Program-made: the position numbers and the translations under genes
Part shown: positions 2,277 to 7,238 of the stretch, piece by piece
How positions within the stretch are numbered: the stretch's first letter is position 1
Layout: each line of letters begins with the position of its first letter
The notes under the pieces: generated by a model
The model's database searches: none
What the model was told of the DNA's origin: nothing
What the model saw: the letters and a program-made list of their open reading frames with translations, nothing else
Origin: Phenylobacterium sp. NIBR 498073
GTDB taxonomy: Bacteria > Pseudomonadota > Alphaproteobacteria > Caulobacterales > Caulobacteraceae
Length of the DNA stretch: 64,000 nucleotides
Assembly: GCF_027286305.1 (NCBI RefSeq)
Contig: NZ_CP114599.1
Span: 4,074,001-4,138,000 of the forward strand
Direction of reading: 5' to 3'

Positions 2277-3227
2277 TCAATTCCTCACTCGCCTGCGTAG
2301 TTCATCGCTCGACGCACAACCCACGTCATAGACGAAGTCCGGCCGCGAGGCAGTGACCGGCCCGATTCCAGCCGCCGCCAGCGTCAAGGACGCCTCGGCC
2401 ACCTTGCCGGCCGGCACCAGCAACCCGTTGGGACGGCGGGTCGCGCCGTCCGCCACCAGGGCGTCGACGACCGGCGTCTCGCGCGGATCGGCCGGCCAGA
2501 TCAGGGTGGCGCTGTCGTGGGCGGCGGCGCGCGCCTCGATGACCCGCAGCAACCGCTCGGCCGCCGCAAGTTGATCTTGGCTCCAGGATGCACGCAACGA
2601 GGCCGTCAGATGGGCCTGGCTCTTCAGGATCACCCCATCGCCGAGCACCTTCAGGCCGTTGGCGACCAGGGTCGCGCCGGTAGTGGTGATGTCGACCACC
2701 AGCTCAGCCGAGCCGGCCGCCGGCGCCCCCTCGGTCGCGCCGCCGGATTCGGTGATCCGGTAGTCGGCGACCCCATGCCGCGCGAAAAACGCCCGGGTCT
2801 GGACCAGATACTTGGTCGCCACCCGCATGCGCCGGCCCGAGCGGGCCAGCAGGTCGTGGCCCACCTCCTCCAGGTCGGCCATGGTCTCGACGTCGATCCA
2901 GCTCTTGGGCACCGCGACGACGAGGTCGGCGCGGCCGAAGCCGAGCGCGCGCAGCAGCAGCACGCGGGCGTCGACGTCGCCGCCGCGTTCGCGCAGCAGG
3001 TCCTCGCCGGTGACGCCGAGGTGCACCTCGCCAAGGTCCAGCGCCTCGGCGATGTCGCCGGCCGACAGCAGCCGCACCTGGATGCCGGGCACGCCCTTGA
3101 GCTCAGCCATGTAGCCGCGCGATCCGCCGGCCACGGACAGTTTCAGGCCGCAGTCGCCGAGCCAGGCCTCGACCTGCTCCTTCAGGCGCCCCTTCGACGG
3201 GACGGCGAGAATAAGGGGTTCGCTCAC
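2277..3227 (-). CDS. hisG: ATP phosphoribosyltransferase, catalytic subunit
   Basis: First step of histidine biosynthesis: ATP plus PRPP gives phosphoribosyl-ATP. The N-terminus ILAVPSKGRLKEQ and the PRPP-binding segment ELVVDITTTGATLVANGLK are characteristic of HisG. The start is the GTG at 3227, with GGGAGG upstream, and it overlaps the hisZ stop as GTGA; this gives 316 aa. Organisms that also carry HisZ usually have a short HisG of about 210-230 aa. Here roughly 85 extra residues follow the catalytic part (from about residue 232), roughly where long HisG forms carry their regulatory domain. The tail is Ala-rich and only loosely resembles that domain. Last gene of the minus-strand block hisS-hisZ-hisG, probably controlled by the upstream attenuator. 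Confidence 0.95.
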   Translation of the reverse strand: MSEPLILAVPSKGRLKEQVEAWLGDCGLKLSVAGGSRGYMAELKGVPGIQVRLLSAGDIAEALDLGEVHLGVTGEDLLRERGGDVDARVLLLRALGFGRADLVVAVPKSWIDVETMADLEEVGHDLLARSGRRMRVATKYLVQTRAFFARHGVADYRITESGGATEGAPAAGSAELVVDITTTGATLVANGLKVLGDGVILKSQAHLTASLRASWSQDQLAAAERLLRVIEARAAAHDSATLIWPADPRETPVVDALVADGATRRPNGLLVPAGKVAEASLTLAAAGIGPVTASRPDFVYDVGCASSDELRRRVRN

Positions 3228-4357
3228 GACTCGCCTCCCGCCCAGGCCCGCCAGGGCCGGACCACGCATCCGACGGCGCGCGCGCCGCTCGCTCCGCCCA
3301 GCCGCGAGGGCAGGCTGTCATAGCGCCCGCCGACCGCGACGCTGCGCTCGGGATCGAGCGCGGCCGAGCGGATCTCGAAGGTCAGGCCGTCATAGTAGTC
3401 GAAGGCGTGACCCAGGGCGGTGGCGAAGTGCATCTTCGCCGCCGGCACGCCGGCCGCGGTCAGCAGCTCCAGGCGCTCGGCCCAAGCCGCCAGCGGGGCG
3501 TCCAGCGCCCCGGCGCCGGCCACCGCCCGCATCGCGTCGAAGGCCGCCTGCGGCGCATCCTCGATGGCCAGGAAACGGCGGATGCGATCGGCCTGATCGC
3601 CGGTCAGGGCCGGGGCCTGGGCCGCCTGGGCGCGGCGGATCAGCCGCTGGGCGATCTCGGCCGGACCACGGCCGCCGACCGGGTCGATCCCGGCCAGGGC
3701 CCAGACTTCCTCCAGCACCGTGGCGGCCTCGGCCTCCGACAGGCCCGAGAGCAGGCCGGCGAGCTTGCCGTCGTCGCTCGGTGCGGCGGCCGCGCCTTCG
3801 GCGCGGGCCAGTTCGGCGGCCAGCAGCCGGGGACGCGACGCGACCCGCTTCACCCGCGCCGCCAGCGGGGCCGCCAGGCCCAGGCTGTCGACGAAGGCGG
3901 CGAAGAGGGCGATGTCGCCCAGCCATAGCGAAAGGTCGCTGCGCCCGCCGGCCAGCGCCGAGCGCCAGGCCAGGACGGCGATGTCGGCGTCGGCCTGCAC
4001 GACCGAAGACCCCGCCGCATCGAAGCGCTCCAGGCCGATCTGACGGAACTCGTCGGGACGGCCCGGCTCGGGCGAGGCGCGGAAGGCCTTGCCCTCATAA
4101 AAATAGCGGCCGGAGGTGCGGCCGCTTTCCAGGTGCTGGCGCACCACCGGGACGGTGAAGTCCGGGCGCAGGCAGGTCTCCTGCCCGCCCTCGGACTGCA
4201 CGACGAACAGGCGCGGGCGCATGGCCTCGCCGACCAGTTCCAGCAGCAGGCCGAGCGGCTGCAGGATCGGGGCGTCGACGACCTCGGCGGCCAGGTCCAG
4301 GAACGGCGCGCGGATCGCGGCCAGCGGCTCGGCGGGAACGGCGGGTTCAGCGCTCAT
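3224..4357 (-). CDS. hisZ: ATP phosphoribosyltransferase regulatory subunit
   Basis: Class II aminoacyl-tRNA-synthetase paralogue that lacks aminoacylation activity and forms the allosteric subunit of the HisG-HisZ enzyme. Synthetase-like segments visible are TCLRPDFTVPVVRQHL (motif-1/2 region), YFYEGKAFR, EFRQIGLERFD and, near the C-terminus, GHAFDYYDGLTFEI and VAVGGRYDSL, as in HisRS/HisZ. The chosen ATG at 4357 gives 377 aa and overlaps the hisS stop as ATGA, with GAGG about 7 bases upstream. A 28-residue upstream extension of the open frame lies inside hisS and is rejected. The stop overlaps the hisG GTG start, so the three genes are translationally coupled. Confidence 0.95.
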   Translation of the reverse strand: MSAEPAVPAEPLAAIRAPFLDLAAEVVDAPILQPLGLLLELVGEAMRPRLFVVQSEGGQETCLRPDFTVPVVRQHLESGRTSGRYFYEGKAFRASPEPGRPDEFRQIGLERFDAAGSSVVQADADIAVLAWRSALAGGRSDLSLWLGDIALFAAFVDSLGLAAPLAARVKRVASRPRLLAAELARAEGAAAAPSDDGKLAGLLSGLSEAEAATVLEEVWALAGIDPVGGRGPAEIAQRLIRRAQAAQAPALTGDQADRIRRFLAIEDAPQAAFDAMRAVAGAGALDAPLAAWAERLELLTAAGVPAAKMHFATALGHAFDYYDGLTFEIRSAALDPERSVAVGGRYDSLPSRLGGASGARAVGCVVRPWRAWAGGES

Positions 4358-5823
4358 CGGCCGGCCTCGATGATCTTGCGCACGGCCGCGACCAGCTCGG
4401 CGCGGTCGATGGTCTGCTGGCCCGGACGCTGTTCGCGCCACTCGGCGTTGTCGGCCACGCCCGAGGAGAGCGCGCGGCCGAGGTCGAGGTCCTTGATGGT
4501 GACCTTGCCGGCGGCGATCTCGTCGCCGCCCAGCATGATCGCGGCCGGCGCCATGCGGCGGTCGGCGTACTTCATCTGGGCCTTCATGCCGGCCGAGCCG
4601 AGATAGACCTCGGCCGGGATACCGGCGGCGCGCAGCTCGCCGACCACCGAGAAGTAGTGGGTCATGTCGTCGGGGGTGAAGGCGATCACCACCACCGGGC
4701 CGCGGATGTCGTCGCCGAGGTCCTTGCCGGCCGCGCGCAGGGCCGAGACCAGGCGCGAGACGCCGAACGAGAAGCCGGTGGCGGGCACCTGCTCGCCGGT
4801 GAAGCGGGCGACGAGGTCGTCATAGCGGCCGCCGCCGCCGATCGAACCGAAGCGGACGCCGCGGCCCTTCTCGTCCTTGGTCTTGAGCAGCAGTTCGGCC
4901 TCGAACACCGCGCCGGTATAGTACTCGAGCCCACGCACGATCGAGGGGTCGAAGGCGGCCCGCTCGACGCCGACGCCGAGGCTGGTCAGGGCCTTGTCGA
5001 TCGCCGCCAGTTCGGCCAGGCCCGCGTCGCCCTCGGCCGAGCCGCCGATGATGCCGGCGATCTGGTCGAGGGTTTCGGAACGGCCGCTCAGCCCCGCGCC
5101 CACGAAGGCCAGCACCGCCTCGGCGCCGACCGCGTCGAGGCCCGCGCCCTTGGTGAAGTCGCCGGACTCGTCCTTACGGCCCTCGCCCAGCAGCAGGCGC
5201 ACGCCCTCCGGACCCAGGCGGTCCAGCTTGTCGACGGCGCGCAGCACCGCCAGCTTCTGGGCGTCGTCCTTGACGCCGGCCGTGGTCAGCAGGCCGTTCA
5301 GCAGCTTGCGATTGTTGATCTTGATGATCGCCGAGCCGGTCGGCAGGCCGGCGGCCTCCAGCCCCTCGACCGCCATGGCGATGATCTCGGCGTCGGCCTC
5401 AGGCCGGGCCGAGCCGACGGTGTCGGCGTCGCACTGGATGAACTCGCGGAAGCGGCCAGGGCCGGGCTTCTCGTTGCGCCAGACGGGGCCGAAGGCGTAG
5501 CGGCGGAACGGCTTGGGCAACCCCTCCTTGGTCTCGGCCACGAACCGGGCCAGCGGCGCGGTCAGGTCGTAGCGCAGGGCCATCCACTGCTCGTCGTCGT
5601 CCTGCAGGGCGAAGACGCCCTCGTTCGGACGGTCGGCGTCGGGCAGGAACTTGCCGAGCGCGTCGGCATACTCGAAGGCCCCGGTGTCGAAGGCCTCGAA
5701 GCCGTAGCGTTCATAGACGGCGGAGACCTTGGCCAGGATCTGGCGCTCGGCGGCCAGGTCGCGGGCGCGGCGGTCGTTGAAACCGCGCGGGGCGCGGGCC
5801 TCGGGGCGGGGAGCGTCGGTCAT
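4354..5823 (-). CDS. hisS: Histidyl-tRNA synthetase
   Basis: Charges tRNA-His in the cytoplasm. Class II core is clear: motif 1 region from GFNDRRARD, motif 2 FRRYAFGPVWRNEKPGPGRFREF, histidine-specific loop RGLEYYTGAVFE and motif 3 GFSFGVSRLV, followed by an anticodon-binding domain (about 390-489). At 489 aa it is longer than the E. coli enzyme (424 aa), as is common in alphaproteobacteria. It heads the hisS-hisZ-hisG block. The only gene-like element between it and the upstream GST gene is the His-rich leader at 5987-6064. Control of a HisRS gene together with biosynthetic genes by charged tRNA-His supply would make sense, because the enzyme sets that supply. Confidence 0.97.
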   Translation of the reverse strand: MTDAPRPEARAPRGFNDRRARDLAAERQILAKVSAVYERYGFEAFDTGAFEYADALGKFLPDADRPNEGVFALQDDDEQWMALRYDLTAPLARFVAETKEGLPKPFRRYAFGPVWRNEKPGPGRFREFIQCDADTVGSARPEADAEIIAMAVEGLEAAGLPTGSAIIKINNRKLLNGLLTTAGVKDDAQKLAVLRAVDKLDRLGPEGVRLLLGEGRKDESGDFTKGAGLDAVGAEAVLAFVGAGLSGRSETLDQIAGIIGGSAEGDAGLAELAAIDKALTSLGVGVERAAFDPSIVRGLEYYTGAVFEAELLLKTKDEKGRGVRFGSIGGGGRYDDLVARFTGEQVPATGFSFGVSRLVSALRAAGKDLGDDIRGPVVVIAFTPDDMTHYFSVVGELRAAGIPAEVYLGSAGMKAQMKYADRRMAPAAIMLGGDEIAAGKVTIKDLDLGRALSSGVADNAEWREQRPGQQTIDRAELVAAVRKIIEAGR

Positions 5824-5923
5824 GGCGCTCGCCTAGCGGGTCGCAGCGCGCGCGGCAAGGCGCGGCTGGGTTTGATAAGCGGAGATGTCCATTCGTCAGG
5901 TCCTTGAAAAGGAGAACTTCGAC

Positions 5924-5954
5924 GGATGGAGCTGGCGTGCCCGGAGCCCCATCC
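5924..5954 (-). terminator. Attenuator hairpin 3:4 (terminator-like) of the his leader
   Basis: Ten-bp stem on the minus strand: GGATGGGGCT (5954-5945) pairs with AGCTCCATCC (5933-5924, one G-U), loop 11 nt. It lies between the leader ORF stop (5987) and hisS (5823). The 5' arm is shared with the competing hairpin at 5939-5975. The downstream tract is not a proper U-run (GTCGAAGTTCTCCTTTTC), so termination strength is uncertain. Confidence 0.6.
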
Positions 5955-5975
5955 GCTGGTGCGGGTGGCTCGGGC
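5939..5975 (-). promoter_or_regulatory. Antiterminator hairpin 2:3 of the his leader
   Basis: On the minus strand, GCCCGAGCCACCCGC (5975-5961) folds back with a 4-nt ACCA loop onto GCGGATGGGGCTCCGGGC (5956-5939). Fourteen pairs form, with one mismatch and small bulges. It uses the same bases (5945-5954) as the 5' arm of the downstream hairpin, so the two structures exclude each other. A weaker 1:2 pairing is possible between GCGGG inside the leader ORF and CCCGC of this element. This is the architecture of a ribosome-dependent amino-acid attenuator. Confidence 0.6.
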
Positions 5976-5986
5976 GGGGGTCGCTT

Positions 5987-6064
5987 TTAGGCCATGCGAT
6001 CCCAGGCCGATCCCGCGTGTGCGGTCGGATGGTGATGGCCGTGATGGTGCGAAACCCGGGTCAT
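5987..6064 (-). CDS. his operon leader peptide (25 aa, seven His codons)
   Basis: Short minus-strand frame upstream of hisS that reads HHHGHHHPTAH at residues 6-16: seven His codons in eleven, mixed CAC and CAT, followed by nine residues and TAA. Such a cluster directly before hisS-hisZ-hisG, with competing hairpins downstream, is the hallmark of a histidine attenuator leader. Ribosome stalling at His codons would favour the antiterminator. No Shine-Dalgarno sequence is visible. The ATG sits in the 7-nt loop between two copies of the self-complementary ACCCGGGT (6054-6061, 6069-6076). A GTCTAAGAC sequence (6083-6075) resembling the Caulobacter -10 GCTANAWC lies just upstream, so the message could begin almost at the ATG (leaderless). 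Function is inferred from codon content and position. Confidence 0.75.
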   Translation of the reverse strand: MTRVSHHHGHHHPTAHAGSAWDRMA

Positions 6065-6114
6065 TGCGACCCGGGTCTTAGACGCAAAGTGTGAAGATGG
6101 CGAGTCGGAACGGC

Positions 6115-6765
6115 TCAGGCCGGTTCGAGCTCGACGAAGTCGCCCAGCTGGGCGGCCAGCGCCGCCTGGAAGGCCGAGCGCGCCTCGCAGCGGGCCTGAT
6201 AGGCGGCCAGGGTTGGGAACTGCGCCATCAGCTCGGTGTGGCGCAGGTTGCGCAGCACCGTGACCATCATCAGGTCGCCGGCCGTGAAGCCGCCCGCCTC
6301 CAGATAGTCCTTGCCGCCGAGACTGGCGGCGAGTTCGCCCAGCCGCTGCTCGACGAAGGCCACGACGGCGGGCCGGCGCAGACGCGCCCATTCCTGGTCG
6401 GCGTTGAAGAGGTCGAGCTCGGCCAGGTTCTGGATCGGCGGCTCGATGGAATTGAGCGCCGCGAACAGCCAGGCGGTCGCCCGGGCCCGGCCGTCCGGGT
6501 CAGCCGGCAGCAGGGCCGGGGCGCCGGCGGCGATGTGCAGAACGATGGCCCCGCTCTCGAACATCGCCAGCTCACCCTCGCGATAGGCCGGCACCTGGCC
6601 GAACGGTTGCAGCGCCCGGTAGGCGGCGGTCTCGCGGTCGTCGAAGTCGATCAGCCGGGCGCGATAGGGCAGGCCCGCCTCCTCCAGCGCCCAGCGGACG
6701 CGCAGGTCGCGAACCAGGCCGCGGGCGAAGGGCGGAACCCACTTGAAGGCGGAAACTTCGATCAT
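6115..6765 (-). CDS. Glutathione S-transferase family protein
   Basis: 216-aa cytosolic GST-like protein. The N-terminal thioredoxin-like domain (about 1-80) ends in the glutathione-contact motif FESGAIVLHIA, after the cis-Pro region GQVPAYREGE. An all-helical C-terminal domain follows (about 90-210), with AGGFTAGDLMMVTVLRN matching the N-capping motif region. Substrate unknown. Third gene of the minus-strand set arsR-SRPBCC-GST, starting two bases after the SRPBCC stop. Its stop lies 50 bases before the his leader ATG, so read-through into the his region is possible. Confidence 0.9.
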   Translation of the reverse strand: MIEVSAFKWVPPFARGLVRDLRVRWALEEAGLPYRARLIDFDDRETAAYRALQPFGQVPAYREGELAMFESGAIVLHIAAGAPALLPADPDGRARATAWLFAALNSIEPPIQNLAELDLFNADQEWARLRRPAVVAFVEQRLGELAASLGGKDYLEAGGFTAGDLMMVTVLRNLRHTELMAQFPTLAAYQARCEARSAFQAALAAQLGDFVELEPA

Positions 6766-6767
6766 GA

Positions 6768-7238
6768 TCAGGCCTCCTTGGCCAGGTAGCCGGCCAGCTT
6801 GTCGAGCAGCGAATTCCAGCCGCCGATGTGGGAGTCGCGGGCCTCGACCGTGGCGAACGACGTCTGGTGAAAGCTGAACAGGGTGCGACCGCCGGCCAGC
6901 CGCCCGAAGGTGACCGTGACGGTGTGGTCACGCACGCCCATCGCCCCGTCGGCCCAGCCGAAGCTCATGACGATGCGCTCGGCCGGCACGATCTCCTTGT
7001 AGGCGCCCTGCATCCAGTGGTCGGCGCCCTTGTCGTCGCGAATGCAGGCGCGATAGGCGCCGCCGACGCGGAAGTCCTGCTCGAAGGTGGTGGTGACGAA
7101 GTCCTTCGGACCCCACCAGCGCATTAGATGCTCGGGCGTGGTCCAGACTTCGAAGACCAGCTCGGGCGGAGCCTCGAAGATGCGCTCGATGAGCAGTTCG
7201 TCGTCCTGGAGGACGGCGGCGTTAGTCGTCGCGCTCAT
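6768..7238 (-). CDS. SRPBCC / AHSA1-like domain protein
   Basis: 156-aa START-like lipid/ligand-binding fold protein of the Aha1-C-like type. Typical features are IERIFEAPPELVFEVWT at the N-terminus, then the WWGPKDF motif, and the C-terminal segment WNSLLDKLAGYL. The ATG at 7238 is chosen because the family start MSATTNA follows; it lies 17 bp inside the arsR 3' end, so the genes are coupled. This arsR-SRPBCC pairing is common; such ArsR proteins usually autoregulate the pair. Ligand and role unknown. Confidence 0.9.
   Translation of the reverse strand: MSATTNAAVLQDDELLIERIFEAPPELVFEVWTTPEHLMRWWGPKDFVTTTFEQDFRVGGAYRACIRDDKGADHWMQGAYKEIVPAERIVMSFGWADGAMGVRDHTVTVTFGRLAGGRTLFSFHQTSFATVEARDSHIGGWNSLLDKLAGYLAKEA

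Follow-up and report, generated by a model that had tools for sequence, protein, structure and literature searches.

The DNA that we analyzed (the window, a 64,000-nt stretch of Phenylobacterium sp. NIBR 498073) carries a short ORF with a run of histidine codons, and comparison with related genomes gives good support for its being a His-codon leader of hisS-hisZ-hisG. We consider it probable that this leader works as a ribosome-stalling translational attenuator of the three genes, in which one RNA hairpin (4:5) would shut the start site and a competing one (3:4) would open it. Sequence comparison supports the conservation of the leader, the pairing of helices 2:3, 3:4, and 4:5, the absence of a U tract, and the position of 4:5 over the start.

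A His leader peptide ORF precedes hisS, hisZ, and hisG

The preliminary description had placed a 25-codon frame with seven His codons between a GST gene and hisS, and we confirmed this: minus-strand positions 6064–5987 encode the peptide MTRVSHHHGHHHPTAHAGSAWDRMA* (25 codons, 7 His), which is conserved 5′ of hisS in relatives. A GST-like gene (6115–6765), matched by NCBIfam models below cut-off only, flanks the leader on the side away from hisS. The hisS-hisZ-hisG set claimed downstream was borne out as well, as hisS (histidine-tRNA ligase, 4354–5823, TIGR00442), hisZ (3224–4357, NF008949), and hisG (2277–3227, TIGR00070), all on the minus strand, each scored above the curated cut-off. The hisS stop can overlap the hisZ ATG (4357) as ATGA, and the hisZ stop can overlap the hisG GTG (3227) as GTGA; the starts of hisZ and hisG were chosen by us from these overlaps.

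A search for the pattern CAY-CAY-CAY-NNN-CAY-CAY-CAY returned two occurrences in the whole 4.29 Mb genome, the second being in a 324-aa ORF, within a His-rich stretch; by our own reading, this ORF looks like a cation transporter. Given this rarity, and the recurrence of the frame at the corresponding place in relatives, a chance origin of the His frame is very unlikely. Across the leaders the choice of His codon varies (205 CAC, 122 CAT). The sequence GCGGGAUCGG is retained 3′ of the His run; it translates as RGIG in Caulobacter and as AGSA in relatives of the window. As it is kept despite the differing frames, it is the RNA that is conserved after the His run, and not the tail of the peptide.

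The leader is conserved in part of the Caulobacterales

For the survey of hisS loci we took the best 80 named loci of a longer list and looked for a leader within 450 nt upstream. A His leader of the kind seen in the window was found in 38 of these 80 loci; in four (L065, L069, L087, and L098) the upstream DNA was too short to judge. The His-containing ORFs of L052, L054, L076, L125, and L127 were judged by us not to be leader-like and were counted as absent. A comparison of the His runs across Caulobacterales had been proposed earlier, and among the best 80 loci, with titles counted by eye, the runs proved to be conserved before hisS in every locus titled Phenylobacterium (16/16) or Caulobacter (13/13). 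Of the 28 loci among the same 80 that are titled Brevundimonas (23) or Asticcacaulis (5), 26 could be assessed, and the leader was absent from all of these. Among other genomes of the order, it was present in 9/9 from the genus of the window, 16/16 from genus g4, and 1/1 from g5, and absent from all those tested of g2 (nine), g3 (two), and g6 (one). Thirty regions were taken from other families of the order; hisS could be placed in 28 of them (two with <250 nt upstream), and three of the 28 bear a different His leader.

Several observations were made on leaders in other genomes. Family f2 (L131–L133, L199–L214) has a different hisS leader, MNTxLHHHHHHA/S*, whose pattern occurs in 16 of 249 genomes, the reversed-pattern control giving none; its start, AUGAACAC, looks complementary to a downstream GUGUUC(AU). 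In a 1.2 Mb alphaproteobacterial genome (L194), the ORF MKNIVLNHTHHHTHAKHGLGN* lies 193 nt 5′ of hisS, and a tRNA-His gene (anticodon GTG, 1401–1477) sits between the two. The leader of a Caulobacter sp. MAG (L077) has an insertion that bears its own inverted repeats.

A promoter-like box lies next to the leader start codon

A −10-like box, TCTAAGAC (6075–6082, minus strand), is found near the leader ATG and is of the GCTATA type in many relatives. Using a motif list of our own choice, we found that the end of this box lies 9–14 nt 5′ of the leader ATG in 51 of 55 leaders. From its position we infer that the transcript starts at or near the AUG, and the sequence thus suggests a nearly leaderless mRNA, beginning at the leader AUG or a few bases before it. 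According to passages of PMC4117421, C. crescentus has 375 leaderless mRNAs, with a translation efficiency similar to that of other mRNAs. A promoter scan of both strands of 5000–7000 found none.

A near-perfect inverted repeat, AAACCCGGGTC / GACCCGGGTCT (6052–6078), surrounds the leader AUG and overlaps the −10-like box. We rejected it as a component of the switch: as one arm overlaps the box, the repeat should be incomplete in the transcript. In L016 a palindrome, GTTCGTGACTCGGTCACGAAC, lies 5′ of the −10-like box, and the motif GACTCG is common to several Phenylobacterium leaders.

Mutually exclusive helices follow the His codons

All helices described here are on the minus strand. Directly 3′ of the HHHGHHH codons lies hairpin 1 (CCGACCGC / GCGGGATCGG, 6007–6028), whose 5′ arm would be covered by a ribosome stalled on His. 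Two mutually exclusive hairpins had been claimed at 5939–5975 (2:3) and 5924–5954 (3:4), as antiterminator and terminator, respectively; both are present and have 5945–5954 in common. We re-read hairpin 3:4, which has no U tract, as an anti-sequestor. The sequestor would be hairpin 4:5 (5889–5929), in which arm 4 pairs with the start region (CCATCCGTC with GACGAATGG, CCTT with AAGG) and which closes over the AUG and a Shine-Dalgarno-like AAGGA (5901–5905). Finally, an alternative pairing of GCGGG (6016–6012) with CCCGC (5965–5961), spanning 5961–6016, removes arm 2 from 2:3. Its probability was summed over related positions, and it is the MFE fold in L002 and L009.

Helix tests were performed on 55 of 57 distinct leaders; we had dropped L077, which has an insertion between its arms, and L100, whose start anchor lay inside the region. 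In an arm-swap test, 0 of 5000 permutations matched the native pairing for each of 2:3, 3:4, and 4:5, indicating that their arms pair better within species than between them; these p-values are optimistic, as the leaders are related and the helices were defined after the alignment was seen. The weaker helices barely co-vary in this test (36/5000 for the alternative pairing, 301/5000 for hairpin 1). Hairpin 1 was tested without alignment columns, because the MAFFT alignment was off by one base there between clades.

The proportion of paired cells was 98.4% in 3:4, 97.2% in 2:3, and 85.9% in 4:5. One pair of 3:4 shows an exchange of U-A and C-G in 17 leaders, and one pair of 2:3 is seen as A-U, G-C, and C-G. 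A check for compensatory base changes in both hairpins had been suggested in the preliminary description; it gave changes on both sides at just one pair in each of 2:3 and 3:4. For 4:5 the covariation counts were close to those of shuffles (61/500 and 66/500). In 17 leaders an A of arm 4 is replaced by G, which preserves its pairing with the U of AUG as G-U.

The AUG under 4:5 is in the hisS frame in 36 of the 55 leaders (hisS starts estimated from the alignment), and in the other 19, the window included, it opens a short ORF that ends between 20 nt before and 8 nt after the estimated hisS start. In the window this ORF, MDISAYQTQPRLAARAATR* (5833–5892, minus strand), begins under 4:5 and stops 9 nt before the hisS ATG; it is predicted to be translationally coupled to hisS. 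In 15 relatives the start matching that of the short ORF gives an in-frame N-terminal extension of hisS, and in L047 and L073 the corresponding start reads AUG-UAG.

Stalling on His codons is predicted to favor hairpin 3:4

A terminator scan of 5000–7000 returned zero terminator-like sites. The U tract after 3:4, previously called weak, turned out to be absent altogether, the best 8-nt window never exceeding three U in the 55 leaders. After 2:3, U runs longer than three are missing from 54 of the 55, the exception being L032 with five U.

To follow the helices during translation of the leader, we blocked a ribosome footprint at successive codons and computed equilibrium folds of RNA ending after arm 4. 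The probability of 3:4 was 0.87–0.90 with the A site on the last His codons vs. 0.43–0.47 four to nine codons later. With 13 nt covered downstream, stalling raised it in 42 and lowered it in none of 55 leaders, 13 showing no shift; the result was similar with 10 nt (41 up, 1 down) or 16 nt (42 up, 1 down) covered, and for leaders at <70% identity (a rise in 17 of 22, a fall in none). As the probability was already 0.75–0.89 before the last His codons (0.66 with no ribosome), the scan reports that the ribosome has not yet passed, and not the His codons alone. In the full-length RNA the probability of 3:4 was also at its maximum at the His codons, but reached merely 0.31–0.36, vs. 0.04–0.09 three to twelve codons past His and 0.17 in the free RNA; stalling raised it in 37 leaders, left it unchanged in 17, and lowered it in one of 55. 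Hairpin 2:3, folded in RNA cut after arm 3, did not track the stall (up in 14 and down in 10 of the 55), which counts against a simple relay of arms.

In an equal scan of the E. coli hisL leader, the antiterminator formed as long as the ribosome had not gone beyond the His codons, and was lost at later codons. This is the known answer, which validates the method for that leader; the sign in our leaders is the opposite. The control was usable with RNA cut before arm F. An equilibrium fold of hisL including the terminator was rejected as a control, as the terminator had a probability of 0.94–0.98 under any stall. The predicted direction of the switch comes entirely from the folding calculation.

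The start site is predicted to open more easily under a stall

Arm 4 has a second partner, the Shine-Dalgarno/AUG region (4:5), and this points to translational control. The calculated cost of opening this region was 7.7–7.9 kcal/mol under a His stall vs. 9.6–9.9 kcal/mol after passage of the ribosome, and 9.5 kcal/mol with the ribosome at the leader stop codon. The mean change on stalling was −1.96 kcal/mol (−4.2 in the window); the cost was lower by >0.3 in 46/55 leaders and higher in 2/55. Dinucleotide shuffles of the post-His segment gave changes of −0.54 or −0.31 vs. −1.92 for the native sequences, the native change being more negative than that of the shuffles in 45 and 48 of the 55 leaders.

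A weakness of the translational model is that, in these calculations, the openness of the Shine-Dalgarno itself stays about constant (0.40–0.43), so that the stall does not free it; what mostly changes is the openness of the AUG (from 0.26–0.28 to 0.32–0.37) and of the lower stem. The mean openness of the start region, which went from 0.33 to 0.37 only, was dropped as a readout, and helix probabilities and opening energies were used instead. A Shine-Dalgarno-like sequence, loosely defined, is present in 37/55 leaders. Structure at the regulated start exceeds that at the hisS starts of 41 leader-less relatives by a small margin only (p = 0.10 on raw values, p = 0.003 on z-scores).

The leader coincides with Rfam family CC3513 on the opposite strand

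The plus strand of the same region (5951–6113) matches Rfam RF01528, Caulobacter sRNA CC3513, slightly below the gathering cut-off (38.3 vs. 40 bits; E 5.2e-5). RF01528 was detected in 18 of 249 genomes of the order (E ≤ 0.001), at one place each and over the cut-off in 13, and all 18 loci (L001–L018) hold the His leader before hisS. Over the three helices, G-U pairs on the leader strand exceed A-C 36 to 17 (9:0 in 3:4, 24:14 in 4:5, and an even 3:3 in 2:3). Judged from sequence, RF01528 may be the His leader drawn on the opposite strand, possibly through a strand error. A passage of PMC4117421 reports that two previously predicted ncRNAs are actually translated. Our literature search, incomplete in its coverage, found no paper joining CC3513 with Caulobacter.

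Proposed mechanism and alternative explanations

In the mechanism that we propose, the promoter, the coupling, and the physiological response are those we infer. Transcription would begin at most a few bases from the leader AUG. When His-tRNA is charged, the ribosome would traverse the His codons and 2:3 would form, so that arm 4 would be free to form 4:5 with the Shine-Dalgarno/AUG region and to shut the start. When it is uncharged, the ribosome would stall on the His codons and cover the 5′ arm of hairpin 1; the GCGGG freed in this way would take arm 2, arms 3 and 4 would form 3:4, and the start site would be opened more easily. Depending on the leader, the start opened would belong to hisS as such, to a hisS with an N-terminal extension or, as in the window, to the short ORF ending 9 nt before hisS, and the ATGA and GTGA overlaps may pass the effect to hisZ and hisG by coupling. 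We hold only tentatively, as a possible account, this arm relay as a whole, in which a His stall on a nearly leaderless peptide would open the hisS start, tRNA-His charging would directly control translation of hisS and, via the overlapping genes, the first step of histidine synthesis, and CC3513 would be the leader on the wrong strand.

Two alternatives place the control at transcription. The roles given in the preliminary description, with 3:4 as terminator and 2:3 as an antiterminator promoted by the stalled ribosome, are those of a classical attenuator, and they agree with a His leader followed by two exclusive hairpins in the usual order; moreover, passages of PMC4117421 describe ilvBN attenuation with a rho-independent terminator in Caulobacter. 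These roles were not supported, however: 55 leaders are without a U tract and 5000–7000 is without a terminator-like site, arm 4 pairs with the start region, and the calculated stall favors 3:4 over 2:3, the opposite of E. coli hisL. As a stall on His favors 3:4, a terminator at this position would switch hisS off during starvation, and we regard a classical attenuator as quite unlikely. Exchanging the labels, so that 2:3 is a weak or Rho-assisted terminator and 3:4 the antiterminator, would give a sign that fits induction by starvation in the stall scan, and L032 with its five U after 2:3 might be read in this way. Yet the remaining 54 leaders have no such run, and the arrangement does not account for arm 4 pairing with the start site; we consider it unlikely.

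Two further alternatives concern what the leader region encodes. A separate plus-strand small RNA (CC3513) antisense to the hisS leader, the His run being incidental or of dual use, is what the strand and the label "caulobacter sRNA" of RF01528 convey. It is made rather improbable by the preservation of His while the codon varies, by the excess of G-U over A-C on the leader strand (2:3 alone aside), and by the minus-strand −10-like box 5′ of the leader in 51 of 55 cases; an antisense transcript in addition to the leader may nevertheless exist. The short ORF might also be an upstream ORF that is translated but has no regulatory role and simply supplies hisS with ribosomes, in line with a proposal in PMC4833913 that leader ORFs raise expression by reinitiation; we find this very hard to believe, as it would explain neither the conserved His runs nor the exclusive helices, whose arms match better within a species than across species.

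Comparison with known systems

If our reading of a translational attenuator is true, a family that serves as a model among alphaproteobacteria would have an aminoacyl-tRNA synthetase whose translation is switched by a ribosome stall. The charging of tRNA-His would then govern its own charging enzyme and the first step in making histidine, and a publicly catalogued sRNA family would become a cis-regulatory leader on the other strand. In the literature found, coverage of which was incomplete so that an earlier description is possible, no paper joins Caulobacter, a leader peptide, and hisS, and none reports such a hisS leader in Caulobacterales. Among the five matches listed by an Rfam search of 5500–6600 (E up to 10), neither the His_leader family RF00514 nor a T-box family was found.

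With the enteric hisL leader (RF00514) our element shares a short peptide with a His run, sensing of tRNA-His charging by a stall, and a chain of exclusive hairpins. Two features of leader-peptide attenuators are present, namely a run of regulatory codons in a short ORF 5′ of a related gene and mutually exclusive RNA helices 3′ of that run; a third, a choice of helix set by where the ribosome stands on these codons, is predicted by the folding calculations. Two features of the classical form are not, i.e., an intrinsic U-tract terminator and, by calculation, a stall that disfavors the hairpin in the terminator position. Unlike in enteric hisL, the target is hisS-hisZ-hisG, there is no U-tract terminator, and the stall is predicted to favor the last long hairpin.

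In bacilli, His leader peptides occur 5′ of a hisS paralogue (hisS*) and of hisZ, as described in passages of Naville and Gautheret (2010; PMC2965389). These leaders have in common with ours the His leader peptide before such genes, and differ in belonging to Firmicutes and in having been predicted from a terminator search; a passage of the same paper states that firmicute and proteobacterial leaders show no similarity.

Sequestration of the RBS in place of termination is a known variant of attenuators (PMC9413887), and translational T-boxes lie 5′ of ileS in Actinobacteria (PMC1262725); the passages of these two papers on sequestering attenuators contain no hisS case with a His leader. Judging from the same passages, both types have in common with our leader a sequestor hairpin at the start site instead of a terminator, and T-boxes differ in sensing tRNA directly. 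The leader likewise has an alternative hairpin over the Shine-Dalgarno and start codon, with weak covariation by column counts. Finally, RF01528 corresponds to the same genomic element as the His leader, but is assigned to the opposite strand and labeled as an sRNA gene.
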